Positions 7,453 to 55,753 of a stretch of DNA of 64,000 nt are shown here, in pieces. Each line of letters opens with the position of its first letter. Within the stretch, counting starts at the first letter, position 1. Source of the DNA: a virus. Made by a program: the position numbers and the translations under genes. The stretch spans positions 62,001-126,000 of IMG/VR virus record IMGVR_UViG_3300027541_000009. One strand, 5' to 3'. The notes beneath the pieces are model-generated. The model did not search any database. It worked only from the letters and a program-made list of their open reading frames with translations, and was not told where the DNA came from.

Positions 7453-9135
7453 ATGTCTAAACTGTTTGGATTTAAAATAGAAGAGACTGGGGAAGATAAA
7501 AATAGTCAAATTATCTCCCCAGTTCTTTCTAATGATGAAGATAAATCTAATTTTTATATTACTAGTGGATTTTATGGTCAGTATGTAGATATTGAAGGTG
7601 TATATAAAAATGAAGCAGACTTAGTTAGAAGATATCGAGAAATGTCACTTCATCCAGAATGTGACAGTGCTATCGAAGACGTAGTAAATGAAGCAATAGT
7701 ATCAGATTTAAATGATAGTCCAGTGCAAATTGAACTATCAAATTTACCAGCTTCAGATAAATTAAAAGAAATTATAAGAAAAGAATTCAAATCCATTAAG
7801 GAAATCATGGATTTCGATTCTAAAGCACATGAAATTTTTAGAAATTGGTACGTAGATGGGAGAATCTATTACCACAAAGTAATTGATTTAAAGCACCCAG
7901 AAGAGGGAATTAAAGAAGTTAGATATATTGACCCATTAAAAATTAAATATATTAGAAGACTTAAGAAAAAACAGGAAAATACTGTATCTGCACAAGTTAA
8001 ATCTATACTTGCAAGAAACGGTCAGACTAATGTTGATGAAATTACAAATCCAGAAATTGAAGAGTTTTATTTATATGACCCCTCAGTAGGATATTCTGCC
8101 ACAGTATCTAATTTACATGGAAGTTATACTTCTGCAACTAAAGGGATAAAATTGTCCCCAGACTCAGTTGTCTATGTAACATCTGGTCTTGTTGATAGAA
8201 ACAGACAAACCGTACTATCCTATTTACATAAAGCAATCAAATCACTCAATCAACTTAGAATGATTGAAGATTCTCTAGTGATTTATAGACTATCTCGTGC
8301 ACCTGAACGTAGACTTTTCTATATTGATGTCGGCAACCTACCAAAAATTAAAGCCGAGCAATATATGAGAGATGTTATGAACAGGTATAGAAATAAACTT
8401 GTTTATAATGCAGATACTGGTGAGATTAAAGATGACAGAAAATATATGGCAATGCTTGAAGATTATTGGTTGCCTCGTAGGGAAGGTGGAAGAGGAACTG
8501 AAGTTACTACTCTACCTGGTGGTCAGAATCTAGGAGAACTTTCAGATATTGAGTATTTTCAGAAGAAACTTTACAAATCACTTGGGGTTCCATCTACAAG
8601 ATTAGATTCGGGTGGTGGATTTAACCTCGGAAGATCTTCAGAAATTCTTCGTGATGAATTAAAATTTACCAGATTTGTAGGAAGATTAAGAAAGAGATTT
8701 TCTAATGTCTTTTTAGACATGCTAAAAACACAACTTATATTAAAAAATATTGTAACTCCAGAGGATTGGAAAGTATTATCTGAGCATATTCAATTTGATT
8801 ATCTTTATGATAACCATTTTTCAGATCTTAAGAAAAATGAGATTATGAATGATAAACTTGGTGTGGTTGCAGCAATGGATCCATATCTTGGTAGATATTT
8901 CTCTGCAGAATATGTAAGGAGAGAAATTCTCGGACAGAGTGATAGTGAAATGCTTGAAATAGATAAACAAATGAAAAAAGAAATAAAAGATGGAATAATT
9001 CCAGATCCTGCTGCAATGATGCAACCTGAAATGGGAGCACCTATGCAACAAGGAGATATCGGAACAGATGCTTTAGGTGCTCCGATGAAAGAACCCGGAG
9101 TATCAGACTCTAATGTTCAAGCTGGAGAAATTTGA
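7453..9135 (+). CDS. gp20: Portal vertex protein gp20
   Basis: 560 residues, close to T4 gp20 (524). Conserved portal segments include SLHPECDSAIEDVVNEAI (about 61-80), RAPERRLFYIDVGNLP (about 282-297), NRYRNKLVYNADTGEI (about 309-326) and LGVPSTRLDSGGGF (about 375-390). Twelve subunits form the dodecameric DNA gate, nucleate prohead assembly and dock gp17. The C-terminal 40 residues are low complexity (Met, Gly and Pro rich). This gene is the standard marker for environmental cyanomyoviruses. Confidence 0.98.
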   Translation: MSKLFGFKIEETGEDKNSQIISPVLSNDEDKSNFYITSGFYGQYVDIEGVYKNEADLVRRYREMSLHPECDSAIEDVVNEAIVSDLNDSPVQIELSNLPASDKLKEIIRKEFKSIKEIMDFDSKAHEIFRNWYVDGRIYYHKVIDLKHPEEGIKEVRYIDPLKIKYIRRLKKKQENTVSAQVKSILARNGQTNVDEITNPEIEEFYLYDPSVGYSATVSNLHGSYTSATKGIKLSPDSVVYVTSGLVDRNRQTVLSYLHKAIKSLNQLRMIEDSLVIYRLSRAPERRLFYIDVGNLPKIKAEQYMRDVMNRYRNKLVYNADTGEIKDDRKYMAMLEDYWLPRREGGRGTEVTTLPGGQNLGELSDIEYFQKKLYKSLGVPSTRLDSGGGFNLGRSSEILRDELKFTRFVGRLRKRFSNVFLDMLKTQLILKNIVTPEDWKVLSEHIQFDYLYDNHFSDLKKNEIMNDKLGVVAAMDPYLGRYFSAEYVRREILGQSDSEMLEIDKQMKKEIKDGIIPDPAAMMQPEMGAPMQQGDIGTDALGAPMKEPGVSDSNVQAGEI

Positions 9136-9141
9136 TAAATA
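9134..9141 (+). promoter_or_regulatory. Late promoter of the gp67-like gene
   Basis: GATAAATA, one mismatch from the T4 late box; it overlaps the last bases of gp20 and lies 23 bases before the ATG at 9165. Confidence 0.55.
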
Positions 9142-9164
9142 ATCAGAACTAACAAATTAATTTT

Positions 9165-9323
9165 ATGGAAGACCTAATTACAATGATTGTTAATGGTGAA
9201 ACTCCTTCAGATGTAAGTGACAAAATTAAAGAGCTTCTTTATATGAGAGCTGCAGAAAAAGTGGAATCACTAAAACCTGAAGTTGCAGCAAGTGTTTTTG
9301 GGGATGAGCAATCTGAATATTAA
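9165..9323 (+). CDS. gp67: Prohead core protein, gp67-like
   Basis: 52 residues from ATG 9165 to TAA. The sequence MEDLITMIVNGETPSDVSDK followed by LLYMRAAEKVESLKPEVAAS resembles the N-terminal half of T4 gp67 (pip), a small prohead core protein also encoded between gp20 and gp21. It lacks the long acidic tail of T4 gp67. By homology it would be part of the scaffold core together with gp22 and be cleaved by gp21. The position between portal and protease supports the call more than sequence identity does. Confidence 0.65.
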   Translation: MEDLITMIVNGETPSDVSDKIKELLYMRAAEKVESLKPEVAASVFGDEQSEY

Positions 9324-9327
9324 TAAT

Positions 9328-9335
9328 AATAAATA
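9328..9335 (+). promoter_or_regulatory. Probable late promoter upstream of 9358 gene
   Basis: AATAAATA, one mismatch from TATAAATA, 22 bases before the start at 9358. The surrounding TAATAATAATAAATAA run makes a chance match possible. Confidence 0.45.
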
Positions 9336-9357
9336 ACTAATATAAGTATCAAATACT

Positions 9358-9918
9358 ATGTCTGCGTTTAAAATTGTACAAAATTTACCTACTTTGAGTG
9401 TTGCAGGAACTGGAATAGTGACTTCAACTCCTATTGCACTTAAATCCGGTTATTTGCGTATTGTACCAGAACAAAATACTTATATTGAATTAGGTACAAC
9501 ACCAGTAGTTAACACCTCAACTTCAATATGGATTCCTGCAAATGGTGAATTAATCTTAAAAGAAACTGTAAGATCACAACCAACTGTAGGAATACAAACA
9601 GGAGCAACTACAACAATTACAGTACCATCTGGAACTGGATGTGCATTTGAAGTTGGTGATTATGTATCACTATCTGGAATTTCTCCCGCAGGAATTAATA
9701 CTAATTTTGCACGAGTTTCCAATATTGATCAATCTACATCATATGATAGCCCACATCAAACCAAAATGGTTTTGAGTTGGGATACATCATCACAAGGTCC
9801 TGTTACTGTACCTACAGGTGAAGTTAGAAAAGTAACCAAAGTTGCTGCCTATAATGACAGTGGTTCCTCTTCAAAAATTCATATTACAGAAGTACAAGTC
9901 GTATCTAATTTCAGCTAA
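9358..9918 (+). CDS. Unrecognised beta-rich protein in head cluster
   Basis: 186 residues, rich in Thr, Ser, Val and Gly with few charged residues, predicted mostly beta strand; no signal peptide, membrane helix or catalytic motif. Its stop overlaps the gp21 start (TAATG), so it is co-translated with the protease and is expressed late. Location and composition suggest a small virion protein, for example a head decoration or fibre component, but this is inference. Confidence 0.7.
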   Translation: MSAFKIVQNLPTLSVAGTGIVTSTPIALKSGYLRIVPEQNTYIELGTTPVVNTSTSIWIPANGELILKETVRSQPTVGIQTGATTTITVPSGTGCAFEVGDYVSLSGISPAGINTNFARVSNIDQSTSYDSPHQTKMVLSWDTSSQGPVTVPTGEVRKVTKVAAYNDSGSSSKIHITEVQVVSNFS

Positions 9919-10571
9919 TGAAACTAATCACAGAAGAAATTGAACAGGTAGAAGTTATCGTTGAAGAAATCAACGGTAAAAAATCTCTCTACATTGAAGG
10001 AATATTTTTACAAGGAAATATTGCAAATAGAAATAGAAGAATGTATCCAATGGACACCCTGAGAAAAGGGGTTAATTTGTATACTGAAAATTATTTAAGC
10101 AAAGGTAGAGCAGTAGGTGAACTTGGTCACCCATCTGGACCAACTATCAATTTAGATAGAGTTTCTCACAATATTATTTCACTAAAAGAAAGTGGTAATA
10201 ATTTCATAGGCAAAGCTAAAATTTTAACTTCCTTACCAATGGGTAAAATTGCAGCAGGTCTTTATGAAGAAGGTGTAAAACTTGGAGTTTCTTCTCGTGG
10301 TGTTGGTACGTTAGTCCAAACCAATGAGGGTTACAGTAAAGTAAGTGAAGATTTCATGCTTTCTACTGCTGCTGACATTGTGCACGATCCATCTGCACCT
10401 GAAGCTTTTGTAAATGGAATCATGGAAGGTGTTAGTTGGTTATATGATTCTAAAAAACAAATTTGGATTTCTGAAAATATTAAAAATAAGATTGAAAATG
10501 ATGTAGTTTCTAGAAGATTAACTGAAGAAAGAAAATTACAACATTTTGAAAATTATTTAAAACTCATATAA
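9918..10571 (+). CDS. gp21: Prohead core protease gp21
   Basis: 217 residues, as in T4 (212). It has the conserved motifs of the T4-type prohead serine protease: GELGHPSG with the candidate catalytic His (about 71), a second His in RVSHNI (about 84), and GVSSRGVG with the candidate nucleophile Ser (about 125). gp21 is a scaffold component that, after shell assembly, cleaves gp23, gp22, gp67 and internal proteins at (I/L)-x-E sites. This matters for the large proteins further along the window that carry such sites. The start overlaps the upstream gene. Confidence 0.97.
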   Translation: MKLITEEIEQVEVIVEEINGKKSLYIEGIFLQGNIANRNRRMYPMDTLRKGVNLYTENYLSKGRAVGELGHPSGPTINLDRVSHNIISLKESGNNFIGKAKILTSLPMGKIAAGLYEEGVKLGVSSRGVGTLVQTNEGYSKVSEDFMLSTAADIVHDPSAPEAFVNGIMEGVSWLYDSKKQIWISENIKNKIENDVVSRRLTEERKLQHFENYLKLI

Positions 10572-10582
10572 AAACTCAACAT

Positions 10583-10590
10583 TATAAATA
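10583..10590 (+). promoter_or_regulatory. Late promoter of gp22
   Basis: Exact TATAAATA, 39 bases before the gp22 ATG. Confidence 0.75.
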
Positions 10591-10629
10591 AATACAGAAT
10601 AAAACAATAAGGTTATTCGGAGAGTTCAA

Positions 10630-11856
10630 ATGTCTCGTGGTAAAAACTTACAAGAAATGGAAGTAGGCACTAAGCAATCCAAAACTGCTGTCAATGCTGG
10701 TGCAAAGGCAGGAGACCCAATGGCAAAGTTAACTACAGGTATTCCTGATGGTCAAACAGCTGGATGGGAAGATTTGGGAGGTCCTACCCCAGAAAATAGT
10801 CGTCCTGATGATGATAGTAATAAATTGAAAGATCCTGCTGCAATCCTTCAGCAAGTAAGAGACGTAGTAAATCGTGGTGCTAAAGCAGCCGATCCTATGA
10901 AACATCTTGCAAAAGGTGCAGTTAAAGAAGAGGAAGAATTAGATGATGAAGATCTGATCGATGAAGACTTGGAAGACGAAGTAGTTGAAGAAGCTGCAGA
11001 GTCTGAAGATGAAGAAAAATCTTCTAAGAAAAAGTCTAAGAAAAAAGACGAAGAAGAAGATGAGGATGAAGAGGACGAGGATGAAGAAGACGAGTCCATG
11101 AAGGAGCAAATCGAAGAAATCGAGACTCAGATTGAAGAAGATGTAGAGGCACTCCTTTCAGGTGAAGAACTTTCCGAAGAATTTAAATTCAAGGCAAAGA
11201 CTGTTTTTGAAGCAGCACTAAATGCCAGAACTGAGCAAATTGAAGAAGCAATCGTACAAAAGTACGAACAGCAACTTTCAGAAGAAGTTGAAGCAATTGC
11301 TGAATCTTTAACTGAAAGAGTAGATTCCTATCTTGAGTATGTTGCTCAAGAATGGTTGGAAGAGAATGCAATTGCTCTAGAGCAAGGTCTCAGAGCAGAA
11401 ATGACAGAGAGCTTCCTCAATAATCTCAAGCAACTTTTTGAAGATCATTATGTAACTATCCCTGAAGAAAGATATGATGTACTTGAGAGCATGGTAGAAA
11501 AACTTGATGATATGGAGACTAAACTCAACGAGCAAATTGAAAGAAATATTGCTCTAAACAAAAGACTAGCAGAGTCAGTTACCGATGTAATCTTTGGTGA
11601 AGTTTCTGAGGGTCTTGCACTTTCTCAGAAAGATAAGCTTGCTTCTCTTGCGGAAAATGTTGAGTTTGATGGTGAGGAAGAATATCGTGAGAAACTAGTA
11701 ACATTGAGGGAATCTTATTTCCCATCTACTACTGGTACTCCAAGAAACACCCAAGATTATCTAGTAGAAGAAACTACTGAGACTATGCAATATCAGTCAA
11801 CCAGTAGAACTATGGATGCATACTTAAATGCACTTGGAAAGGTTTCTAGAAAGTGA
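10630..11856 (+). CDS. gp22: Prohead scaffolding core protein gp22
   Basis: 408 residues. The N-terminal 90 residues are lower in charge; residues about 95-160 are an extreme Asp/Glu/Lys run interrupted by SSKKKSKKK; the rest is long helical and acidic (EEIETQIEEDVEALLSG and following), the typical gp22 scaffold helix. T4 gp22 (269) forms the core around which gp23 polymerises and is degraded by gp21 before packaging; this version is longer by its acidic N-terminal region. AGAG lies upstream of the ATG. gp23 follows after 54 bases. Confidence 0.95.
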   Translation: MSRGKNLQEMEVGTKQSKTAVNAGAKAGDPMAKLTTGIPDGQTAGWEDLGGPTPENSRPDDDSNKLKDPAAILQQVRDVVNRGAKAADPMKHLAKGAVKEEEELDDEDLIDEDLEDEVVEEAAESEDEEKSSKKKSKKKDEEEDEDEEDEDEEDESMKEQIEEIETQIEEDVEALLSGEELSEEFKFKAKTVFEAALNARTEQIEEAIVQKYEQQLSEEVEAIAESLTERVDSYLEYVAQEWLEENAIALEQGLRAEMTESFLNNLKQLFEDHYVTIPEERYDVLESMVEKLDDMETKLNEQIERNIALNKRLAESVTDVIFGEVSEGLALSQKDKLASLAENVEFDGEEEYREKLVTLRESYFPSTTGTPRNTQDYLVEETTETMQYQSTSRTMDAYLNALGKVSRK

Positions 11857-11910
11857 ATTTTAGATAATAAAAATCAAACAAAAAACAATTTTACACAGAG
11901 GTAAATTCAA

Positions 11911-13320
11911 ATGCAAATGTTCAATGCAGAACAGCTGCAGGAAAAGTGGGCACCACTCCTTGACTACAATGGTCTTAATGAAATCAAAGATCCACATCGT
12001 AGAGCGGTAACTGCTATCCTGTTAGAGAACCAAGAAAAAGCTCTTAGAGAAGAGAGAGAATTTCTTACAGAAGCAACCCCAACCATGAACACTGATCCCG
12101 CAGGATCAGGTGCAGCAGGTTTCAGCTACGGTGCTTCCGCAGCAGGTCCAGTAGCAGGTTTCGACCCAGTTCTGATCTCACTGATCAGACGTTCAATGCC
12201 TAACCTTGTTGCATATGACCTAGCAGGTGTTCAACCAATGAACGGTCCTGTAAGTCTCATTTTCGCAATGAGATCACGTTATACCAACCCACAAGGTAAT
12301 GAAACATTCTACAATGAAGTAGATACCACCTTCTCTGGTCAGAATGCTGGCAGAAACAATGACAATGGTTGGACTAACGGTAACGTTGGTTTCGGAACCA
12401 CTGCACAGGTTGGTTCAAACCCAGGTCTTCTCAACCCAACTTCTGCACCTCTCGGTGAGTACAATGTTGGTCAGGCAATGAGCACTTCTGAGGCAGAAAG
12501 TCTCGGTAATGATCTCAATGATGCTGGCACCTTCTTCAACGAGATGGCACTTAGCATCGAGCGTGTATCCGTTACTGCTAAGTCTCGTGCTCTGAAAGCA
12601 GAATACAGTCTTGAGCTTGCTCAGGATCTGAAGGCAATTCACGGTCTGAATGCTGAGGCTGAACTTGCAAACATTCTCTCAACTGAGATTCTTGCTGAGA
12701 TCAACCGTGAAGTTATTCGTACCATCTACATGATTGCAGAACCTGGTGCACAAAATAACGTTGCAACTCCTGGTATCTTTGACCTTGATGTTGACTCCAA
12801 CGGTCGTTGGTCAGTTGAGAAGTTCAAAGGTCTTATTTTCCAAATGGAAAGAGATGCCAACCTGATTGCACAAAGAACTCGTAGAGGTAAGGGGAACATG
12901 ATTCTCTGCTCTGCAGACGTTGCTTCAGCACTGTCTCACGCAGGAATCCTGGATTACACCCCAGCACTCAACGCAAACCTCCAGGTAGATGACACCGGTA
13001 ATACTTTTGCAGGTGTTCTCCAAGGTAAGTATAAGGTTTATATCGACCCATATTCTGCAAACAATAGCAACACCCAGTTCTATGTTGCTGGTTACAAGGG
13101 AACCTCACCTTACGATGCAGGTCTCTTCTATTGCCCATATGTTCCTCTCCAAATGGTTCGTGCCGTTGGTGAGCAGTCCTTCCAACCAAAAATTGGATTT
13201 AAGACTCGTTATGGCATGGTTGCTAACCCATTTGCTGAAGGTCTTAACCAAGGTCTTGGAAGACTCCAGAGAAACTCCAACACCTACTACAAGAGAACTC
13301 TTGTTAAGAACCTCATGTGA
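11911..13320 (+). CDS. gp23: Major capsid protein gp23
   Basis: 469 residues (T4 521). FLTEATPTMN at residues 51-60 matches the T4 maturation site (FLAEA), so gp21 is predicted to cut after Glu54. Conserved HK97-fold segments include ISLIRRSMPNLVAYDLAGVQ (about 90-109), SVTAKSRALKAEYSLELAQD and GFKTRYGMVANPF near the C-terminus. Codon use is visibly different from its neighbours, with many C-ending codons (AAC, ACC, CTC, TCC), as expected of the most strongly expressed gene. No gp24 vertex gene follows, as usual in cyanophages. An intrinsic terminator lies 21 bases after the stop. Confidence 0.98.
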   Translation: MQMFNAEQLQEKWAPLLDYNGLNEIKDPHRRAVTAILLENQEKALREEREFLTEATPTMNTDPAGSGAAGFSYGASAAGPVAGFDPVLISLIRRSMPNLVAYDLAGVQPMNGPVSLIFAMRSRYTNPQGNETFYNEVDTTFSGQNAGRNNDNGWTNGNVGFGTTAQVGSNPGLLNPTSAPLGEYNVGQAMSTSEAESLGNDLNDAGTFFNEMALSIERVSVTAKSRALKAEYSLELAQDLKAIHGLNAEAELANILSTEILAEINREVIRTIYMIAEPGAQNNVATPGIFDLDVDSNGRWSVEKFKGLIFQMERDANLIAQRTRRGKGNMILCSADVASALSHAGILDYTPALNANLQVDDTGNTFAGVLQGKYKVYIDPYSANNSNTQFYVAGYKGTSPYDAGLFYCPYVPLQMVRAVGEQSFQPKIGFKTRYGMVANPFAEGLNQGLGRLQRNSNTYYKRTLVKNLM

Positions 13321-13341
13321 TCCATTCACATTAAGTTCACT

Positions 13342-31494: not shown

Positions 31495-32694
31495 ATGAAG
31501 TCCTTTCGTCAGTTTATATCAGAAGCTTTAGAAACTGTAGCATCATCTCAAGCCAAGCAAATGGGTTTGAGGGGGAATGGTCATGGAGATTGGTACGACA
31601 ATCAAGGAAATTTAGTAGCAAAAACTGTTGGTGGAAAATTAAAAGTATTTAAAGGGAGAGGTGGAAAGGGACCTAGAGATGAATCTCAACCTCAAACTAA
31701 ACAAAAGATATCAGTAACTGATAAAGTTTCTCAACAACAATCTGATGCACAACAGCAACAGTCGGACGGATCCGATGGAATCGTTGTAGTATTTGGAAGA
31801 TTTAATCCACCATCTAGGAATCATGAGCAACTTTTAAAATTTGGATTTGCTAGATCTAAAGAATCTGGATATGACTATAGAATTTACCCAAGTCGTATTC
31901 AAGATGCTGGAACTAATCCATTGAATCCTTCTTTGAAGGTTCAATTTATGCAGATCATGTATCCAGAGTATGCAGATTATATTTTAGATAGTGAAGACTC
32001 TAAGACAATTTTTGATGTACTTGAATCTTTGTATGGAGATGGATATAAGAATGTTAAAATTGTAGTTGGATCAGATAGACTTGGAGAATTTCAAAGTCTT
32101 GCTCATAGGAATGATGGTCAGAATTATACTTTCGATAATATAGAAGTATTATCTGCATCTGTTAGAGATCCTGATAGTGATACTGCAGGTTCTGGATCTT
32201 CTGTAGCATTGAGAACTGCTGCTGCTGAAGGAAATTATGAAGCATTTGCTTCTAATCTTCCACCTAAAATGAAAACTGCAGATAAGCAGCAATTATTTGA
32301 TTCTGTAGTTAAATCGATGAAAATTGGTGAGGATTTAGAATTGTGGAAGATTGCCCCCGAACTTGATATGGAAAGTTTGCGTATAAATTATAAAAAAAAT
32401 AATTTATACCCTGTAGGTTCTATGGTTGAAAATTTAAATACCGGATTATCAGGAAGAGTTTTAAGAAGAGGTACAAATTACCTTATCTGTGTTACAGAAA
32501 GTGGGGTAATGTTTAAATCTTGGTTGCAAAATGTAAGAGAATCTACTTATGAGGTAGGGACAGATAAGTATAGGGAAAAACTTCAAAGCATGGTACATGG
32601 TCAACCTATAAAATCTTTTACTAAAATTCCCATTAAAGAAACTGTACCTAAAAACCTAAATAAACTTAGGAAAGATTTGCAAAAAGTAAAATGA
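31495..32694 (+). CDS. Candidate capsid-cargo protein with nucleotidyltransferase domain
   Basis: 399 residues. The N-terminus MKSFRQFISEALETV resembles the T4 capsid-targeting peptide, with a gp21-like site ISE|A after residue 10. A Gln-rich linker (about 60-95) leads to a HIGH-type nucleotidyltransferase (about 97-270): VVVFGRFNPPSRNHEQLL (nucleotide loop), IVVGSDRLGEF, and SSVALRTAAAEGNYEAF (the S/T-x-x-R motif). Such enzymes (NMN adenylyl-, FAD or CTP transferase types) join a nucleotide to a phosphate. Residues about 300-350 form a small KOW-like barrel (YPVGSMVENLNTGLSGRVLR). The exact substrate cannot be read from sequence. Confidence 0.8.
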   Translation: MKSFRQFISEALETVASSQAKQMGLRGNGHGDWYDNQGNLVAKTVGGKLKVFKGRGGKGPRDESQPQTKQKISVTDKVSQQQSDAQQQQSDGSDGIVVVFGRFNPPSRNHEQLLKFGFARSKESGYDYRIYPSRIQDAGTNPLNPSLKVQFMQIMYPEYADYILDSEDSKTIFDVLESLYGDGYKNVKIVVGSDRLGEFQSLAHRNDGQNYTFDNIEVLSASVRDPDSDTAGSGSSVALRTAAAEGNYEAFASNLPPKMKTADKQQLFDSVVKSMKIGEDLELWKIAPELDMESLRINYKKNNLYPVGSMVENLNTGLSGRVLRRGTNYLICVTESGVMFKSWLQNVRESTYEVGTDKYREKLQSMVHGQPIKSFTKIPIKETVPKNLNKLRKDLQKVK

Positions 32695-34163
32695 GTTCTG
32701 AGGAAAGAATTTTTTTAGAGGCTACGGCTGCTGAAATTAAAAGAGCTGGTGAGAAGGAACTTAAAAAAACTCAAAAGGAAAATAAAAAGGAAAAAAAGGA
32801 TTCCGAGTGGTATAGGAAGCAGCTCGAGGCAAATCTCGCATATAAGAGAGAAAGATTAGAGTGGCAAAAGGAAAGGTCATTATTAAAGGATAAATTAAGA
32901 AGAAAAAGAGAAACTGAAAAGGGTGCTGAAAGTGTAAAGGAACCACTTCGTAAAATTAAAACTGAAGTAATTAGTGATAAAGATAAAGATCCAACTGCTT
33001 ATCAAAAAGCAATGGGAAGTGCAGCATCTTTAGCAAAAGGACTTGCTACTGCGGGAGTTGCTGCAGTTAAAAGGAGAGCAGAAAAGAAAAAACAAGAATC
33101 TGAAGGACTTAAAAAACCTAAAGTTGGAACTAGAGAACCTAAACCATATTCGATTGCATATAAGTCTGCTAAGAAAAAAAAGAAATTGGAACCTCAAAAA
33201 TTGTCCGGAACTCCAGAGAGAGAAAAACTCCCTGCAGGTAAAGCACCAATTGCAAGAAGACTGCCTGCAGGTCAAGGTCCTAGTAAACCATCAGGTACAC
33301 TTGGACAAAGAGCTAGAAAAAATCCAGAACTTAAAAAAAAGTTAATCGCACAAAGATCTGTTGGAGAAGAATTTTCTTGTTGGAGAGAAGAATTTTTATA
33401 TGAACTAGGGGAACTTAGAAAAAATAAAAAAAATAAGAAAATGAAAAATGGTGATGAAGAAAAAATTATTGATGTAATGAGTGGTAAAAATAAAATTGTA
33501 ATTGGTCCAAAAATTGATGAGCAATTAGATATTGTAGAAGCAAGAAAAAGAGAGAAAATTGCTAATGCAGTTCTTTTAGCAACTATGGCAGCAACTGCGG
33601 GACAATCTCCCAAAGATTTTGTAAGAACTGGTCATATTGAGTCACCTGGAACTGCTCTTATGCAAACATGGGCAAGAAAAAGAGGTGAGGCAGAAAGAAA
33701 TTTAGATAGTGGTAGAGTTTCTCACCCCTCTAGAAACATTAAGAAAAAAAAAGTTACCGAAGAATGTGATTGTGAAAAAGATCCAAAAAAAGAATTAGTA
33801 AAAGCAATAGTCTCAAAAGCTATGAGTGAAAAGAAAAGAAAAAATTATTTGTTGAATTCTGGAATTATTGGGGAAAAGATGGAAATCTCAGAAGCAAAAA
33901 AGTCTGAGATGAAATGTAATAAACCAAGAGCAGAAGCACATGGTTCTGGTGAAACTGGAAAATCTCATGTCGTAAAGGCTTGTGAAGGTGGAACTGAAAA
34001 ATTAATTCGTTTTGGGCAACTTGGAGTCAAAGGTTCTCCAAAGAGAAAAGGTGAATCTAAAGAATATGCAAGTCGTCGTAATCGATTTAAAACAAGACAT
34101 GCAAAAAATATTGCAAAAGGAAAAATGTCTGCGGCTTATTGGGCAAATAAAGTTAAATGGTAA
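32691..34163 (+). CDS. Large basic, coiled-coil candidate virion protein
   Basis: 490 residues, extremely Lys/Arg-rich. The N-terminal 90 residues are coiled coil; about 95-240 is basic, Pro-rich linker; about 270-310 is IVE|ARKREKIANAVLLATM; about 400 reads MEISE|AKKSEMKCNKP, after which the last 90 residues are a conserved phage domain (HVVKACEGGTEKLIRFGQLG, RHAKNIAKGKMSAAYWA). The two (I/L)-x-E|A sites match the gp21 rule and would release the C-terminal domain. It is coupled to the nucleotidyltransferase gene by a 4-base overlap. I infer a DNA-condensing internal head protein; no activity is known. Confidence 0.75.
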   Translation: MSSEERIFLEATAAEIKRAGEKELKKTQKENKKEKKDSEWYRKQLEANLAYKRERLEWQKERSLLKDKLRRKRETEKGAESVKEPLRKIKTEVISDKDKDPTAYQKAMGSAASLAKGLATAGVAAVKRRAEKKKQESEGLKKPKVGTREPKPYSIAYKSAKKKKKLEPQKLSGTPEREKLPAGKAPIARRLPAGQGPSKPSGTLGQRARKNPELKKKLIAQRSVGEEFSCWREEFLYELGELRKNKKNKKMKNGDEEKIIDVMSGKNKIVIGPKIDEQLDIVEARKREKIANAVLLATMAATAGQSPKDFVRTGHIESPGTALMQTWARKRGEAERNLDSGRVSHPSRNIKKKKVTEECDCEKDPKKELVKAIVSKAMSEKKRKNYLLNSGIIGEKMEISEAKKSEMKCNKPRAEAHGSGETGKSHVVKACEGGTEKLIRFGQLGVKGSPKRKGESKEYASRRNRFKTRHAKNIAKGKMSAAYWANKVKW

Positions 34164-34466: not shown

Positions 34467-35261
34467 ATGGCACTTTGGGGTAATAAAGACGATGTATTCT
34501 CTCCTGGCTCAGTATCAGTAAATTATGCAACTAAAGTAATTACTGGATCTGGAACTTCTTTCCTTGCAGCTTCTGTTGGTGATGTGATTAGTATTGGTGC
34601 AGGTAAAACTTTTGGTGAAGCAATCATTGATAAAATTAATTCACAGACTTCTATTTCTATTGCTACTACCCAATTTTTAAGTGGTGCTGCCATTTCTGGT
34701 GTAAGTGACTATGTAATTTCACAAAAACCAAAATACACTCAGCATGATACACATTTCACTGCAAACCAAATTTTTGGTGTAGATGAGAGTGAGATTGCAG
34801 TAAATACTTATCTTACTCATGCAGGATGGGTTGGAATTATTACTTATGTAGATAGTAGTGGTGAACTGAGAACAAAGACTGAAACTTTAGTCGCAATGTC
34901 TGGAATTACAACAGGCACAACAACATACGCTACTGCAGGTGATGCGGCAGATGATGCTAAACTTCCAGATGTAGATATCACTATCACTTCTCAACCTGCT
35001 TCTGTTGGAGTAGGAACCACTCAAACAGCAACATTTAGTGTTGCTGCAACTGTAGTTCCTTCAACTGCACCTCTATCTTACCAGTGGAGGAAGTCTACAA
35101 CTGCAGGTGGATCGACTTATGCTGACATTGCTGGAGCAACTAACTCCAGTGTAAACATTACTAATAATGGAACTGCAAATAACGGATATCGTTATCGTGT
35201 CGTTATTACTAGTGGTGATGTTTCAGTAACGTCTTCATTTGCTACATTAACTGTTTCATGA
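34467..35261 (+). CDS. Virion protein with Ig-like domain
   Basis: 264 residues. The N-terminal 60 residues (MALWGNKDDVFSPGSVSVNY, VITGSGTSF) are a conserved phage structural module. Residues about 170-264 form an Ig-like domain: ITITSQPASVGVGTTQTATF, PLSYQWRKSTTAGG, NGYRYRVVITSGD and the final strand SSFATLTVS, including the typical YQW tryptophan and the tyrosine-corner YRY. Ig-like domains on tailed-phage capsids, such as T4 Hoc, bind cell-surface or environmental glycans weakly. The strong late cassette in front suggests an abundant virion component. Confidence 0.8.
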   Translation: MALWGNKDDVFSPGSVSVNYATKVITGSGTSFLAASVGDVISIGAGKTFGEAIIDKINSQTSISIATTQFLSGAAISGVSDYVISQKPKYTQHDTHFTANQIFGVDESEIAVNTYLTHAGWVGIITYVDSSGELRTKTETLVAMSGITTGTTTYATAGDAADDAKLPDVDITITSQPASVGVGTTQTATFSVAATVVPSTAPLSYQWRKSTTAGGSTYADIAGATNSSVNITNNGTANNGYRYRVVITSGDVSVTSSFATLTVS

Positions 35262-50485: not shown

Positions 50486-50567
50486 GGGTAGGTGTCCGAG
50501 TGGTTAATGGAGGCGGACTGTAAATCCGCTGGCTCTGCCTACGGGGGTTCAAATCCCTCCCTGCCCA
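50486..50567 (+). tRNA. tRNA-Tyr (GTA)
   Basis: Acceptor GGGTAGG/CCTGCCC, anticodon loop CTGTAAA, long variable arm as expected for Tyr, T-loop TTCAAAT. CCA is not fully encoded. Confidence 0.95.
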
Positions 50568-50571
50568 CCTG

Positions 50572-50641
50572 GTCCCTTCGTCTAGCGGTTAGGACACCAC
50601 CCTTTCACGGTGTAGACACGGGTTCGATTCCCGTAGGGACT
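50572..50641 (+). tRNA. tRNA-Glu (TTC)
   Basis: Acceptor GTCCCT/AGGGAC, anticodon loop CTTTCAC, T-loop TTCGATT. The first anticodon-stem pair is a mismatch (C/T). CCA not encoded. Confidence 0.9.
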
Positions 50642-50644
50642 ATT

Positions 50645-50736
50645 GGAAGTGTGGCAGAGAGGTCTAATGCAGTGGATTGCTAATCCGCCGATGTACCTAA
50701 GTGCATCCGTTGGTTCGAATCCAACCACTTCCGCCA
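50645..50736 (+). tRNA. tRNA-Ser (GCT), CCA encoded
   Basis: Acceptor GGAAGTG/CACTTCC, loop TTGCTAA, long variable arm, T-loop TTCGAAT. It is the only tRNA here with an encoded CCA, which directly abuts the next tRNA. Confidence 0.93.
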
Positions 50737-50808
50737 GGGAGATTAGCTCAGTGGTAGAGCAATGTGCTGATAACGCAGAGGTCGGTGGTTCAAATCCACC
50801 ATTTCCCA
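50737..50808 (+). tRNA. tRNA-Ile (GAT)
   Basis: Acceptor GGGAGAT/ATTTCCC, D-arm AGCTCAGTGGTAGAGC, loop CTGATAA, T-loop TTCAAAT. It starts immediately after the Ser CCA. Confidence 0.93.
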
Positions 50809-50809
50809 C

Positions 50810-50838
50810 TTGACCAGTTTCCAAACAACTGGTACAAT
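50810..50838 (+). promoter_or_regulatory. Sigma70 promoter with inverted repeat in the spacer
   Basis: TTGACC (50810-50815), 17-base spacer, TACAAT (50833-50838). CCAGTT (50814-50819) and AACTGG (50827-50832) form a perfect inverted repeat filling the spacer. It directly precedes the structured RNA. Confidence 0.7.
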
Positions 50839-50844
50839 ATAAGA

Positions 50845-50908
50845 GTTGAGAAATCAACTGCGGCATTCCCCTTCGGTAGGTTCAGGAATGGCGGCGATAG
50901 GAACCTAC
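50845..50908 (+). ncRNA. Candidate small structured RNA with H-type pseudoknot
   Basis: The predicted transcript start (about 50845) falls on a hairpin GTTGA-GAAA-TCAAC with a GNRA loop (50845-50858). Then two interlocked helices: S1 CATTCC (50864-50869) with GGAATG (50885-50890), and S2 GTAGGTTC (50876-50883) with GAACCTAC (50901-50908). Loops of 6, 1 and 10 bases fit a classical H-type pseudoknot. There is no open frame. Its position in the tRNA cluster is like that of T4 stable RNAs C and D, whose role is also unknown. Confidence 0.65.
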
Positions 50909-50913
50909 TTTAT

Positions 50914-50986
50914 GGGCACATAGCATAATGGATAATGCAACATCCTTCTAAGATGACGATTGGGGGTTCGAGTCCCTCTGTGCCTG
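50914..50986 (+). tRNA. tRNA-Arg (TCT)
   Basis: Acceptor GGGCACA/TGTGCCT (one G-T end pair), anticodon TCT in loop CTTCTAA, T-loop TTCGAGT. Follows the pseudoknot RNA by 5 bases. Confidence 0.93.
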
Positions 50987-51069
50987 TTGGAGTTTATCTC
51001 CATACATAAAAGTGATAGAGGGTAAGCCTCTGTTATATCCTTATGAGGTATATTACGCTTACTCCATCT
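50987..51069 (+). other. Spacer with successive hairpins
   Basis: 83 bases between two tRNAs contain TGGAG-TTTAT-CTCCA (50988-51002) and AGAGG-GTAAG-CCTCT (51017-51031), plus a weaker pairing near 51035-51053. No open frame. It could be a processing signal or another small RNA. Confidence 0.4.
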
Positions 51070-51152
51070 GCTTCAGTGGTGGAACGGTAGACACAGCGGA
51101 CTTAGAATCCGCCGCCTTAAAAAGCGTGGAAGTTCAAATCTTCTCTGGAGCA
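51070..51152 (+). tRNA. tRNA-Leu (TAG)
   Basis: Acceptor GCTTCAG/CTGGAGC, loop CTTAGAA, long variable arm, T-loop TTCAAAT. Confidence 0.93.
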
Positions 51153-51153
51153 C

Positions 51154-51182
51154 TTGACAATCAAACTTAAATAGTTTATGAT
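51154..51182 (+). promoter_or_regulatory. Sigma70 promoter spanned by inverted repeat
   Basis: TTGACA (51154-51159), 17-base spacer, TATGAT (51177-51182). GACAATCA (51156-51163) and TGATTGTC (51179-51186) are exact inverse copies covering both boxes. It begins 2 bases after the Leu tRNA, in the word GGAGCACTTGACA that recurs at 55747. Confidence 0.7.
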
Positions 51183-51191
51183 TGTCTCATT

Positions 51192-51263
51192 GCGAAAGTA
51201 ACTCAACGGTAGAGTCCCTGCCTTCCAAGCAGGTTGTTGCGAGTTCGAATCTCGTCTTTCGCT
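51192..51263 (+). tRNA. tRNA-Gly (TCC)
   Basis: Acceptor GCGAAAG/CTTTCGC, loop CTTCCAA, T-loop TTCGAAT. Confidence 0.93.
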
Positions 51264-51300
51264 CTTGGTAGTCGTTATGCAGATAGCATAGAAAGACGCC

Positions 51301-51375
51301 AAAGGAAGTTAAGTCAAAGAATCGAGACAAGCAGACAATGCCCTTTGAACTGGTGTAAGTCCAGTAACTTCCTTT
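51301..51375 (+). ncRNA. tRNA-sized structured RNA lacking an anticodon arm
   Basis: A 10-bp closing helix AAAGGAAGTT/AACTTCCTTT (51301-51310 with 51366-51375) directly abuts a 5-bp arm ACTGG/CCAGT with a 7-base loop TGTAAGT (51349-51365), as acceptor and T-arm do in tRNA. The middle has a D-like GTC/GAC pair and the helix TCAAAG/CTTTGA (51314-51319 with 51343-51348), which exclude each other in part, but no 5+7+5 anticodon arm. It is either a decayed tRNA or a distinct stable RNA. A hairpin TATGC-AGATA-GCATA lies just upstream (51276-51290). Confidence 0.55.
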
Positions 51376-51377
51376 AT

Positions 51378-51450
51378 TCCCATCGACCGAGCAAGCGAAC
51401 GGGCCTGACTGTTAATCAGAGATTGGTAGGGGCAGTACCTACGATGGGAG
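51378..51450 (+). tRNA. tRNA-Asn (GTT), non-canonical loops
   Basis: Acceptor TCCCATC/GATGGGA, anticodon GTT in loop CTGTTAA on a 4-bp stem. The D-loop AGCAAGCGAA lacks GG, and the T-loop is GGCAGTA instead of TTCRANY. Overall shape is right, but the usual D-loop/T-loop contact bases are missing on both sides. Confidence 0.7.
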
Positions 51451-51453
51451 CTT

Positions 51454-51525
51454 GCCCGAATAGCTCAAAGGCAGAGCGTTTCGTTTACACCGAAAATGTT
51501 GGGGGTTCAAGTCCCTCTTCGGGCA
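51454..51525 (+). tRNA. tRNA-Val (TAC)
   Basis: Acceptor GCCCGAA/TTCGGGC, D-arm AGCTCAAAGGCAGAGC, loop TTTACAC, T-loop TTCAAGT. Confidence 0.93.
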
Positions 51526-51549
51526 CTTTACTAAAACGAATACTTGTGT

Positions 51550-51557
51550 TATAAATA
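51550..51557 (+). promoter_or_regulatory. Late promoter of the HNH gene
   Basis: Exact TATAAATA, 22 bases before the ATG at 51580. Confidence 0.7.
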
Positions 51558-51579
51558 ATAAAAGGTATTCGGTTCTATT

Positions 51580-52116
51580 ATGACTACTTGTTTAAACTGC
51601 GGGTGTGAGAACGATAAACCTAAGTTCTGCTCCCGTTCGTGTTCTGTAACCTATAATAATAAGAAGTCTCCTAAGAGGAAAAGAACTGGTTGGGACACCG
51701 CCATCTGTAATTACTGCAGTGTAGAGTTTGACTATAAGAAAAAGAGTTCTACTGGCAAGTTCTGTTCTAACAAGTGTAGTGCTGCAGCCAAGAGACAATG
51801 GACAATAGATAAGTGGAAAGTAGGAGAACTGAACCATACAGGGCAGGGTTATGTTCCCAGCGGTGTTCGTGCTTACTTATTAGAAGCGAGTGGGGGTAAG
51901 TGTTCCCTTTGTGGTTGGTCTGGAACAAACATTCATACCGGACGAACCTGCCTTGAGGTGGACCACATAGACGACGACCCTTTCAACCACGCCCCTGAAA
52001 ATCTACAAGTGGTCTGTCCCAACTGCCACGCACAAAAAACTTTACCACCCCAAAAGAGTAACGGTGGACGTTACAGTAAGGACAAGCAACATCCTAAGTT
52101 TTGTATGAATAAGTAA
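51580..52116 (+). CDS. HNH homing-type endonuclease
   Basis: 178 residues. Two N-terminal zinc fingers (TCLNCGCENDKPKFCSRSCS; ICNYCSVEFDYKK with KFCSNKC) precede the HNH nuclease (about 105-165): CSLCGWSG, TCLEVDHIDDDPFNHAPENL with the DH catalytic pair, and VVCPNCHAQKT closing the zinc site. It is a free-standing HNH enzyme, a usual passenger of phage tRNA clusters. Codon choice is more GC-rich than in the core genes, in line with horizontal movement. It has its own late promoter. Confidence 0.92.
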   Translation: MTTCLNCGCENDKPKFCSRSCSVTYNNKKSPKRKRTGWDTAICNYCSVEFDYKKKSSTGKFCSNKCSAAAKRQWTIDKWKVGELNHTGQGYVPSGVRAYLLEASGGKCSLCGWSGTNIHTGRTCLEVDHIDDDPFNHAPENLQVVCPNCHAQKTLPPQKSNGGRYSKDKQHPKFCMNK

Positions 52117-52143
52117 AAAAATGAATCCCTCTGCTCCCATTTG

Positions 52144-52151
52144 CATAAATA
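52144..52151 (+). promoter_or_regulatory. Late promoter of the dps gene
   Basis: CATAAATA, one mismatch, 16 bases before ATG 52168. Confidence 0.5.
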
Positions 52152-52167
52152 TTTCAAAAAGAGTATA

Positions 52168-52602
52168 ATGGAAAAACTTTATAAACTCTTGAGTGATGCA
52201 CAGTCATCGCTTTTTGTTTTATTCCATAAAACTTGGGCATTTCACTGGAATGTTGTAGGTGAAGATTTCACTCAACTACATCAACTCTTTGGTGGTCAGT
52301 ATGAGACTATGTTTGAAGAGATTGATCGTCTCTCAGAACATATGCGTTATCTGAATGTAAAACCTCTCAGTTCTCTCTCAAGAATGCTTGAGGTAACTCA
52401 AATCAAAGAGGCAGCAAGTTCAACCGGAGCAAAAGAAATGCTTCAAGAACTTCTTGATAACAATACCAAGTTTTGTGAATTGATGGGAGAAATTTCGGAA
52501 GAGTCTGAAAATCAAAAGTCATATGCTACAGCAAATTTAGTTCAAGATTTGATGGAATCTCATGGTAAGTTTGTTTGGCAGTTGAGAGCACACCTGCAAT
52601 GA
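52168..52602 (+). CDS. dps: Dps-family ferritin-like protein
   Basis: 144 residues from ATG 52168 (the frame opens at 52141 upstream of the late-box transcript). FHWNVVGEDFTQLHQLF and YETMFEEIDRLSEHM are Dps signatures. His26, His38, Asp53 and Glu57 reproduce the spacing of the four E. coli Dps ferroxidase ligands (51, 63, 78, 82), so the di-iron site looks intact. Dps shells of 12 subunits oxidise and store iron using peroxide and often bind DNA; the basic N-terminal tail used for DNA binding is absent here. Not part of the T4 core; probably acquired from a bacterial host. Confidence 0.9.
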   Translation: MEKLYKLLSDAQSSLFVLFHKTWAFHWNVVGEDFTQLHQLFGGQYETMFEEIDRLSEHMRYLNVKPLSSLSRMLEVTQIKEAASSTGAKEMLQELLDNNTKFCELMGEISEESENQKSYATANLVQDLMESHGKFVWQLRAHLQ

Positions 52603-52617
52603 TTAGGATGAAGAATA

Positions 52618-52869
52618 ATGATTTCAATAAGATGCAAAGATTGTAATAGAGAAATAACAGGACATCATTCAAAAACAGTGACCTGTGGTTGTCCTAATAT
52701 GGCAACAATTCGTGGAGATAAGATTTCAGCACTTGACTTATCTCGTATTGTTATGTTAAACTCTATTCAGAAAGAACAAAAATCAAATGTTCTGACTTCA
52801 CAAGATATTGCCTGGCAAGAGGCAAGACGCCAACGCAAAGTAAAGCGTTTGGATTTTGAGGTTCGTTGA
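52618..52869 (+). CDS. Small zinc-ribbon protein
   Basis: 83 residues. Cys6-x2-Cys9 and Cys23-x-Cys25 (IRCKDCNRE; VTCGCPNM) make a likely zinc site; the rest is helical (DKISALDLSRIVMLNSIQKE) with a basic tail. Similar small proteins occur in other cyanophages, without known role. It lies between dps and a tRNA-Ser gene. Confidence 0.75.
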   Translation: MISIRCKDCNREITGHHSKTVTCGCPNMATIRGDKISALDLSRIVMLNSIQKEQKSNVLTSQDIAWQEARRQRKVKRLDFEVR

Positions 52870-52879
52870 ACCTCCCACT

Positions 52880-52964
52880 GGAAAGGTGGTCGAGTGGTTG
52901 AAGGCTCTAGTCTTGAAAACTAGCGATGTGAAAGCATCCGTGGGTTCGAATCCCACCCTTTCCG
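52880..52964 (+). tRNA. tRNA-Ser (TGA)
   Basis: Acceptor GGAAAGG/CCTTTCC, loop CTTGAAA, long variable arm, T-loop TTCGAAT. Confidence 0.94.
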
Positions 52965-53026
52965 TTTTAAGTTAAGTTACAAATTTAATATTTTCTTCAA
53001 CAGTGTTACGATATGAACACAAAAAA

Positions 53027-53069
53027 TTGACTTTGAAATGTCTGTGATTAGTATATAATAGTATCACAG
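53027..53069 (+). promoter_or_regulatory. Possible promoter with -10 box framed by inverted repeat
   Basis: TATAAT (53054-53059) lies between CTGTGAT (53042-53048) and its exact inverse ATCACAG (53063-53069). The -35 candidates are TTGACT at 53027 (spacer 21, too long) or TTGAAA at 53033 (spacer 15, short). The gene at 53080 follows. Confidence 0.5.
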
Positions 53070-53079
53070 GGACAAACCT

Positions 53080-53229
53080 ATGGATCAGCACACCTATGAT
53101 AATTGGGTGAAGATCAAGGCAACTTTTGAAGCCTCTGGCAACACTAATAATATGTTTTATTATCGAGCATGTGAGATTTTAAAAACCCGAAAAGATCCTC
53201 TCGCAAAGTTTCTTGGAGACGAGAAATGA
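53080..53229 (+). CDS. Small conserved protein
   Basis: 49 residues: MDQHTYDNWVKIKATFEASG, NTNNMFYYRACEILKTRKD, PLAKFLGDEK. The TYxNWVKIK start is one I associate with small cyanophage proteins. No motif. The stop overlaps the ATG of the following membrane protein. Confidence 0.7.
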   Translation: MDQHTYDNWVKIKATFEASGNTNNMFYYRACEILKTRKDPLAKFLGDEK

Positions 53230-53429
53230 TGCACGAACAAGACGAATTTATTACACGTTCTGAAGTTCAGGAGATGATCGATGCAGCAATACGACGACAC
53301 AACCGTAATGCTTCTATCATTAGTATGTGCGTCGGTTGGGTGGTTCTTGCTTTATTTGCTGAAGGACTTTTGAGACTTGTAGGGGTAATTCCTCCGTTGC
53401 TTCCATGGCTCAAAATCACTCTGAACTGA
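53226..53429 (+). CDS. Small membrane protein
   Basis: 67 residues. A charged N-terminal helix (HEQDEFITRSEVQEMIDAAI) is followed by one transmembrane segment (about 31-53: IISMCVGWVVLALFAEGLLR) and a short hydrophobic tail. The start may be the second ATG (53229). It is overlapped by both neighbours. Function unknown. Confidence 0.65.
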   Translation: MMHEQDEFITRSEVQEMIDAAIRRHNRNASIISMCVGWVVLALFAEGLLRLVGVIPPLLPWLKITLN

Positions 53430-53695
53430 TTTTCTTGGTTCCTTGGTTTGTTCTTGTGGTGATTGCACTTACAATGTTCGTGCAGGGTTGGATGATTATG
53501 AATGCTCATCATGGGTATTCTAAAAGTCCAAAAGTAAAACATCCAGAATTAAACGACGTTAAAGCAGGAGATCCTTTACTAGTGGTTAAATTCACCGAAG
53601 AAGACTTGCAAGAACTGCAACAAAGAATTATACAACAAAAAATGGATGAACTCTTTGAAGAACCATCTACCTATGAGGACGAAGAAGATGATTAG
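53405..53695 (+). CDS. Membrane protein with acidic cytoplasmic tail
   Basis: 96 residues. One N-terminal transmembrane helix (about 8-32: LIFLVPWFVLVVIALTMFVQ) and a soluble tail with FTEEDLQELQQRIIQQKMDE, ending EDEEDD. Second of four tightly packed small membrane genes ahead of and after gnd. Function unknown. Confidence 0.65.
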   Translation: MAQNHSELIFLVPWFVLVVIALTMFVQGWMIMNAHHGYSKSPKVKHPELNDVKAGDPLLVVKFTEEDLQELQQRIIQQKMDELFEEPSTYEDEEDD

Positions 53696-53783
53696 GTTAA
53701 TATTCACTTCAATGACTTTGTTTGGTTCAATTGGACTTTTTATATATTGGGGACTTACGCACGCATATCCAGAGGTTTTATGA
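53688..53783 (+). CDS. 31-residue membrane peptide
   Basis: MIRLIFTSMTLFGSIGLFIY and WGLTHAYPEVL: one transmembrane helix. It overlaps the gene before by 8 bases and its stop overlaps the gnd ATG (ATGA), which supports translation. It is too short to assign. Confidence 0.5.
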   Translation: MIRLIFTSMTLFGSIGLFIYWGLTHAYPEVL

Positions 53784-54814
53784 AAGTAGGATTAATCGGT
53801 TTAGGAAGAATGGGCGAAGGTATGTCTCGCCGCATGATGAAATCGGGTATAGAGGTTTGGGGATATAGAAGAAATTATGAGAAAGCAAACGAAGCTTTTG
53901 AAAAGGGATTTGTTAATGGAATTACGACTGATATTGAAAGCCTTGTTAAAGTAGTTAAACAAAATAAAAACGGTAGACAACAACCAGGTATTTTTCAAAT
54001 GGTTGTTCCATCCGAAACAGTAGAGGAAACGATCAATGAGTTACTACGATATTGTGGTGAAGGAGATATTATTATTGATCATGGCAATAGCAATTTTAAA
54101 GACAGTCGGAAAAGAGCAGAGCGTCTGGCAAAACTTGGTATCCAATATATTGATTGTGGTACTAGCGGCGGTGTTTATGGTTTGGATCGTGGATACTGTC
54201 TTATGGTTGGTGGCGGAAATACTGCGGTCGCCACTTGTGCGAGGATTTTTGATGCCCTTGCCCCAGGAATCAACGCTGCCCCCAGGACTCAGTATGACTC
54301 GGATGTAACTTCTGCTGAGTTTGGTTGGTTACATTGTGGTGGTCCTGGTGCTGGACATTTTGTGAAGATGGTTCACAATGGAATTGAATATGGAATGATG
54401 CAGGCATATGCTGAAGGATTTAATATCTTAAAGAACGCAAATAACGGAGCACAGTATGTCAAAGAAGGAGATGCTGAAGTTGCTCCTATGGCAGACCCAG
54501 AAAGTTATTGTTACGACATTGATGTTGCTGAGGTGGCTGAGTTATGGCGTCGCGGTAGCGTGGTTGGTAGTTGGTTACTCGATCTTACTGCTGATGTGCT
54601 ACGCAGGGATGGTAGCCTTAAACGCTTCTCTGGAGGAGTATCCGATAGCGGTGAGGGTCGTTGGACTGTTTCTGCCGCTGTGGACTTGGGGGTTCCCGCT
54701 CCTGTTATTACTACGGCACTATTTGAAAGATTTAACTCACGCAATCTCGGATCATTTGGAGCAAAAATCCTGAACGGAATGCGTTATATGTTTGGTGGTC
54801 ATCATGTTAGGTAA
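53780..54814 (+). CDS. gnd: 6-phosphogluconate dehydrogenase Gnd
   Basis: 344 residues from ATG 53780 (the frame is open 11 codons further, but the ATGA overlap fits). Rossmann start KVGLIGLGRMGEGMSRRM, substrate loop CGTSGGVYGLDRGYCLMVGG, and catalytic helix GAGHFVKMVHNGIEYGMMQA with the Lys. The short (about 340-residue) class of the family. It oxidatively decarboxylates 6-phosphogluconate to ribulose 5-phosphate, giving NADPH. Cyanophages carry it, with other pentose-phosphate genes, to redirect carbon toward nucleotide synthesis. Codons are more GC-rich than the core genes, as for an acquired gene. Confidence 0.95.
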   Translation: MKVGLIGLGRMGEGMSRRMMKSGIEVWGYRRNYEKANEAFEKGFVNGITTDIESLVKVVKQNKNGRQQPGIFQMVVPSETVEETINELLRYCGEGDIIIDHGNSNFKDSRKRAERLAKLGIQYIDCGTSGGVYGLDRGYCLMVGGGNTAVATCARIFDALAPGINAAPRTQYDSDVTSAEFGWLHCGGPGAGHFVKMVHNGIEYGMMQAYAEGFNILKNANNGAQYVKEGDAEVAPMADPESYCYDIDVAEVAELWRRGSVVGSWLLDLTADVLRRDGSLKRFSGGVSDSGEGRWTVSAAVDLGVPAPVITTALFERFNSRNLGSFGAKILNGMRYMFGGHHVR

Positions 54815-54923
54815 AGCACTTATTTTTGTTGCTATTCCATTTGTATTATCTACACTCTATTTCGGAACAAGAGGCGGATACTATGACTCCAAAGACTATA
54901 AGGGAAATGGAACCGCACATTAG
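54804..54923 (+). CDS. 39-residue membrane peptide
   Basis: MLGKALIFVAIPFVLSTLYF is a transmembrane helix followed by the Gly/Tyr/Asp-rich tail GTRGGYYDSKDYKGNGTAH. It begins inside the end of gnd and overlaps the next gene by 41 bases. It lacks the ExxNGR motif of high-light-inducible proteins. Function unknown. Confidence 0.5.
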   Translation: MLGKALIFVAIPFVLSTLYFGTRGGYYDSKDYKGNGTAH

Positions 54924-55110
54924 GCAGAGATATTGGTTTGCAATGTCTGCCTTTTCAAGAATGTATGGAGTAAAAACTGCTTCTAATGATATACATATTA
55001 AACAGTTCTGTATTGAATGGTCATATTGGGATTGTCAAGCTCCTTTACAGGGGCTTGACGAAGCAGACCAATACATGTATTATGAATACAAGAACTGGAG
55101 AGGAAGATGA
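54883..55110 (+). CDS. Small aromatic-rich protein
   Basis: 75 residues from ATG 54883; upstream in-frame starts are within other genes. EMEPHIRQRYWFAMSAFSRM, FCIEWSYWDCQAPLQG and YMYYEYKNWRGR are rich in Trp and Tyr. No family recognised. The stop overlaps the next ATG. Confidence 0.55.
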   Translation: MTPKTIREMEPHIRQRYWFAMSAFSRMYGVKTASNDIHIKQFCIEWSYWDCQAPLQGLDEADQYMYYEYKNWRGR

Positions 55111-55223
55111 TTTTCCACTTGGTTGAAACCCTAGCAGCAAGTCCTTTCTTTCTTTTTCTTTGTGGATGTGGGTTGACAATCGTACCATTCGCTGGTATTA
55201 TGTTTATACATAAAAACAAATAA
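55107..55223 (+). CDS. 38-residue membrane peptide
   Basis: MIFHLVETLAASPFFLFLCG and CGLTIVPFAGIMFIHKNK: one long hydrophobic helix. The ATGA overlap with the preceding stop supports it. Its TAA ends 1 base before the tRNA-Pro acceptor. Function unknown. Confidence 0.5.
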   Translation: MIFHLVETLAASPFFLFLCGCGLTIVPFAGIMFIHKNK

Positions 55224-55224
55224 C

Positions 55225-55752: not shown

Positions 55753-55753
55753 C

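Follow-up and report, generated by a model that had tools for sequence, protein, structure and literature searches.

The 399-residue protein encoded at positions 31495..32694 of the window, a 64,000-nucleotide stretch of viral DNA, appears to be an internal head cargo of a T4-like cyanophage that carries a nucleotidyltransferase domain with a predicted NMN/NaMN-adenylyltransferase fold. In the proposed mechanism, which we consider on balance rather probable as a whole, the first 10 residues would dock the protein into the prohead core as a capsid-targeting sequence, the prohead protease gp21 would cleave after Glu10 and free the protein within the head, and the cargo would pass into the cyanobacterium along with the ejected DNA. 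The catalytic signature of the middle domain is kept in most family members, and such canonical domains probably join a nucleotide to a phosphate substrate, with NMN or NaMN as the best guess; in the variant group to which the window protein belongs, the site has been remodelled.

The window corresponds to positions 62001-126000 of a virus record of 284,050 bases (IMGVR_UViG_3300027541_000009). The virus is very probably a cyanophage, because the record encodes two proteins that match PF00124 and are of the psbA/psbD kind found in photosystem reaction centres. All protein-coding window features described here lie on the + strand. A T4-like head module is present, in which the prohead protease gp21 (Peptidase_S77, 9918..10571, E=1.6e-34), the predicted processing enzyme, is followed by scaffold-like and capsid-like genes; the likely major capsid protein gp23 (11911..13320) has an N-terminus resembling those of annotated major capsid proteins. 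A cluster of 12 tRNA genes is located at 50486-55753.

The gene, as delimited by its open reading frame and by PHROG and tblastn matches, is that of the cyanophage core protein T4-GC190 ('cytidyltransferase'), present in hundreds of cyanomyoviruses. The profile phrog_395 'cytidyltransferase' matches the protein with E=1.5e-74, tblastn finds matches in 558 phage records, mostly cyanophages, and the T4-GC190 label is carried by the homologues in S-PM2, P-HM2, P-SSM4, S-ShM2 and S-SM1. The relatives in S-SCSM1 and Sf-FS3 are 42-48% identical over 94% of the length and have the same domain order. The gene order helicase, mazG, window gene, primase, nrdA, nrdB is also that of S-SCSM1, and the neighbourhood is syntenic with a block of virion-protein genes in that phage. 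Downstream lie a 490-aa gene with weak likeness to the S-SCSM1 virion protein ORF92 (32691..34163, E=2e-5) and a 264-aa head-protein-like gene, orthologous to the S-SCSM1 virion protein ORF95 (34467..35261, E=1e-38); the arrangement mazG - (virion) - nucleotidyltransferase - (virion) - primase - nrdA is thus found in the window.

The protein consists of a 10-residue tag, an N-terminal module, a Gln-rich linker, the nucleotidyltransferase domain and a C-terminal, beta-rich module. The N-terminal module (residues 11-52, GHGDWYDNQGNLVAKT; 31525..31650) is conserved by alignment and by dN/dS, which between close pairs is 0.027 for the tag and this module together (residues 1-52), against 0.35 for the linker. 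The latter (31651..31770) is variable and predicted to be disordered, with pLDDT under 50 at residues 55-89. The C-terminal module (residues about 288-350, 32356..32544) is common to other cyanophage proteins, as judged by sequence matches and predicted structure. In P-HM2 (L039, 3992-5887) the nucleotidyltransferase domain and the C-terminal module are two adjacent genes, the former without the tag.

The nucleotidyltransferase domain, defined with AlphaFold and Foldseek, comprises residues about 93-283 (31771..32343). The sequence-only reading had assigned it to 31783-32300, an interval that takes in most of the domain but a limited part of the 399-residue gene. It had also placed three motifs correctly: GRFNPPSRNH (residues 101-110, 31795..31824), VGSDRLGEF (residues 191-199) and SSVALR (residues 235-240, 32197..32214), the last being, in the family alignment, the counterpart of SxSxxR or ISSTxxR. 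Its HIGH-type label needs correction, since the HIGH or (T/H)xGH signature is incomplete and rewritten as SRNH, in which the first position is Ser, the invariant Gly is Asn and only the last His is kept. Compared with the NMNAT motifs GxFxPx(H/T)xxH and ISxTxxR, the last His, the Ser and the Arg are kept, while the T/H and the second Thr are lost.

Sequence searches of Pfam, NCBIfam and the PDB with the window protein alone gave no match, and the protein does not reach the curated cut-off of PF01467 (CTP_transf_like). Of 84 family members in an alignment, this profile matches 59, including the relatives in S-CREM2, P-HM2, GAP32 and Sf-FS3, and it is through such relatives, not directly, that homology to the superfamily is established. 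The AlphaFold model of the domain has a pLDDT of 92.6. Its best Foldseek matches in the PDB are NadD/NMNAT structures, with E down to 1e-5, and of the 45 matches below E=0.001 almost every one is an NMN/NaMN adenylyltransferase, followed by PPAT. Among solved structures, NadD, human NMNAT1 and NadM come nearest, at moderate TM-scores of about 0.5-0.6. MscS and integrase folds, matched in a whole-protein search, were regarded as spurious and disappeared when the domain was used alone. The motifs are not a chance occurrence, given the PHROG match, the tblastn matches and this structural placement, and the kinship to NMN adenylyltransferases suggested earlier is supported at the level of the predicted fold. 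The predicted domain supports an NMNAT-like fold, not a particular substrate.

For the family, a role in NAD metabolism has already been proposed in print: Wang et al. 2022 (PMC9602691) suggested that the S-SCSM1 orthologue is brought into the host and there acts on NAD, and the virion-borne and NAD-related ideas of the sequence-only reading had mostly been published for T4-GC190 proteins (PMC9602691, PMC10665884). An injected, active NMN/NaMN adenylyltransferase would rebuild NAD early in infection, and also after an NAD-depleting defence, although the link to defence is a guess. The nearest solved structures agree with such an enzyme, canonical members keep both [TH]xGH and SxSxxR, and the eukaryotic-type NMNAT 9rpk (GSFNPPTFMH) likewise has a residue other than Gly at the third position of the signature; on that ground, the idea that loss of this Gly equals loss of function was dropped. 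However, the fold likeness extends to PPAT, the window clade lacks residues that are conserved elsewhere in the family, and an NAD-salvage partner (a NAMPT or NAPRTase gene), sought in the whole record, was not found. This reading is possible but tentative, and catalysis of NAD synthesis by the window protein itself seems doubtful.

The departure from the canonical site is shared by a whole clade. The signature, which is not a defining trait of the family, reads (T/H)xGH in 131 of 192 family proteins. In 60 it begins with S/A/G and K/R, continues mostly with N and ends with H; these proportions differ from those in nature, as sampling was steered by window-like queries. All but one of the variant proteins (59/60) fall into one group that includes the window protein (support 1.0, branch 0.44). 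In this clade T/H107 is replaced by S/A/G, G109 by N/L/A/S/E, R224 by K and S237 by A; the conserved K139 and K140 are lost, and Y206-N207 and G233 are changed. By contrast with these losses, H110, S235, R195 and K148 are kept in all variant sequences and R240 in 56/60, G192 is kept too, and R129, Y162, G197 and H204 have been gained as near-invariant positions, which suggests a re-tuning of the site. The dN/dS of the domain between close pairs is 0.090 in the variant clade, compared with 0.077 in the canonical group. The domain is therefore constrained yet remodelled, and because the remodelled site remains under strong selection, we prefer to see in it a working enzyme or ligand binder whose substrate has changed, and not a dead remnant. 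NMNAT activity in the clade is putative; the substrate may have changed, or catalysis may have been lost.

The same data bear on another reading, in which the protein is a pseudoenzyme or has a structural role inside the head: its packaged part would serve head assembly or DNA organisation, and the clade's domain would act as a non-catalytic binder. A signature rewritten across 60 sequences would fit such a protein, as would the independent degeneration of the motif to AKFNPPSKEH in L132 (3001-4296), a relative that does not belong to the window clade. So would a syntenic 196-aa orthologue from two metagenomes (L199, 1943-2533; L200, 530-1120), which has the tag and both flanking modules but lacks the nucleotidyltransferase domain, and which counts against the proposal as a whole. 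The low dN/dS, the retained H110, S235, R195, K148 and R240, and the many intact canonical relatives make this reading rather unlikely, and the remodelled enzyme or binder is preferred.

The evidence for packaging begins with the N-terminus. In T4 internal proteins, a 10-residue capsid-targeting sequence is the loading signal, and in IPIII residues 4 and 7 control targeting and residues 8 and 10 control processing (PMC9026906). The window protein begins with MKSFRQFISE (31495..31524), and both the pattern and the T4 rule predict a prohead-protease cut before Ala11; MKSFRQFISE/A (the slash marks the cut) fits the T4 sequence at all four experimentally defined positions. A strict pattern, M[KRNSQT]x[FYL]xx[FYL][LIVMF]xE at an ATG start, is matched by a single open reading frame in the whole 284 kb record, which is the window gene, and the capsid-targeting-like N-terminus noticed earlier is real. 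The only other match in the record is a TTG-start frame, considered as a second cargo gene and set aside as probably due to chance. The record therefore gives no internal support for a set of cargo proteins. Among 192 non-identical homologues, F4 is present in 185 and F7 in 184, a hydrophobic residue occupies position 8, E10 is found in all 189 non-gap sequences and Ala11 in 169/192, while positions 3, 5, 6 and 9 vary. A matching cleavage-like site, FLTE/A, occurs in the likely gp23 of the same phage (residues 51-54, 12061-12072) and resembles the gp23 maturation site.

Orthologues have been detected in virions of four phages by mass spectrometry: S-SM1, where the core protein T4-GC190 was named 'putative citidylyltransferase' (Sullivan et al. 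2010, PMC3037559), S-SCSM1 (Wang et al. 2022, PMC9602691), S-SZBM1 (PMC9146016) and S-CREM2 (PMC10665884). Wang et al. also cite detection in S-CBWM1 (PMC9602691). All four N-termini examined bear the tag, as MKKFSAFLNE/A in S-SM1, MKSFLQFLKE/A in S-SCSM1, MRFRQFIIE/A, one residue shorter, in S-SZBM1 and MKNFSSFLTE/A in S-CREM2. The protein was not detected in S-PM2 virions (PMC3037559); the S-PM2 copy has a different N-terminus, without the tag. For S-CREM1, whose proteome is shallow, 14 virion proteins were detected and the text mentions no NMNAT among them, which counts against the proposal.

It could be argued that the protein is an abundant intracellular enzyme that is not packaged and contaminates virion preparations. 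The authors of the proteomes themselves left carry-over after CsCl purification open (PMC9602691, PMC10665884), and only 2-3 peptides were obtained in S-SZBM1 and S-CREM2. The distribution of the tag in S-CREM2 speaks against this. Six annotated coding sequences fit the pattern: the SAM lyase gp6 (PF23780, E=2.3e-19), gp13, the APH-like kinase gp14, gp136, the cytidylyltransferase gp154 and gp175. All except gp175 are in the virion list, which comprises 52 of the 219 coding sequences, so that 5/6 tagged sequences are detected, against 47/213 of the others (Fisher p=0.003); the sample is small, and most of the signal comes from one phage. The pattern was fixed before the whole-genome scan of S-CREM2, by which time some of its N-termini had already been seen. 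Since the tag is thus found on unrelated virion-detected proteins, packaging is favoured over contamination. With the tag kept at the T4 functional positions and detection in four independent phages, contamination is quite improbable, and homology, the proteomes of relatives and the tag together make it highly likely that the window protein is packaged as head cargo. The sequence-only reading had called it a candidate head protein, a term that suits an internal cargo better than a shell protein.

Several further observations concern the tag. The Cas9-annotated gp12 of S-CREM2, also in the virion list, has a related FASFMAE/A stretch slightly inside its annotated start, and the neighbouring gp8, gp10 and gp11, absent from the list, are without the tag. 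The region 3837-13331 of S-CREM2 (L050) is a block of unrelated virion-detected proteins that resembles a cargo island, with the tagged SAM lyase, APH-like kinase and small gp13 and, bearing the related stretch, the Cas9-annotated protein. In S-SCSM1, two annotated coding sequences fit the pattern, the virion-detected NMNAT and ORF30, which was not detected and counts against the proposal. ORF30 belongs to a conserved, tagged family of about 104 residues whose members begin with M(K/R)(S/N/T)FKQF(L/M)SES, seen also at L003 10451, L151 6278, L161 6604 and L198 2724. More speculatively, a single short tag may be an address code by which cyanophages load into the head a nucleotidyltransferase, a SAM lyase, a kinase and possibly the Cas9-annotated nuclease, with the domain of the window clade re-tuned to a new substrate and shaped by host defences.

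Names in databases need care in this family. A glycerol-3-phosphate cytidylyltransferase of the TagD/GCT type, as suggested for S-SZBM1 (PMC9146016) and in keeping with database names such as 'cytitidyltransferase' for some relatives, is very improbable, as the 50 best fold matches of the domain are NMN/NaMN adenylyltransferases and PPAT, with no TagD/GCT structure among them. The clade with the rewritten active site cautions against giving NMNAT or cytidylyltransferase names from sequence alone. In several cyanophages, among them S-PM2 (L038, 6297-6572), genes for the C-terminal module go under the name of ribonucleotide reductase (NrdB or alpha subunit), apparently a misannotation that has been passed on between records.

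The closest known relatives are the T4-GC190 proteins, named 'cytidyltransferase' or NMNAT, of the cyanomyoviruses S-SM1, S-SCSM1, S-SZBM1, S-CREM2 and P-SSM4, which resemble the window protein in sequence over most of the length, in the tag and both flanking modules, and in position between mazG and primase/nrdA; the window clade differs in having (S/A/G)(K/R)xH instead of (T/H)xGH and no Lys139/140, and the window protein in having no PF01467 match. With T4 IPI-IPIII and Alt it shares an N-terminal 10-mer with aromatic residues at 4 and 7, a hydrophobic residue at 8, Glu10 and a small residue at 11, in a phage that has gp21 and gp23, whereas its cargo domain is unrelated to the internal proteins or Alt and the cut is a predicted one. 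NadD, NMNAT1 and NadM have the same Rossmann-like fold and the motifs GxFNPP..xxH and SxxxxR, but identity is about 13-17%, the signature is altered, the domain is fused to phage modules and the activity of the window protein is putative. Phage routes to NAD, namely the NAPRTase and NMNAT of jumbo phages and Adps-Namat of NARP1, also place an NMNAT-type domain in phages; unlike these, the window phage has no partner NAPRTase, and Namat is an unrelated, Nampt-type transferase. To our knowledge, neither route has been reported as head cargo. In our literature search, no publication was found that joins a capsid-targeting sequence with cyanophage cargo. From published proteomes, a packaged NMNAT-like protein or other enzyme could not be told from a contaminating one; a T4-type tag supplies a mechanism and a cheap test for enzyme packaging, and makes it possible to predict cargo for hundreds of cyanophage genomes from their sequence. 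Three points are new and of most use: the tag as the mechanism of packaging, its occurrence on packaged enzymes that are unrelated, and a clade in which the signature has been rewritten.
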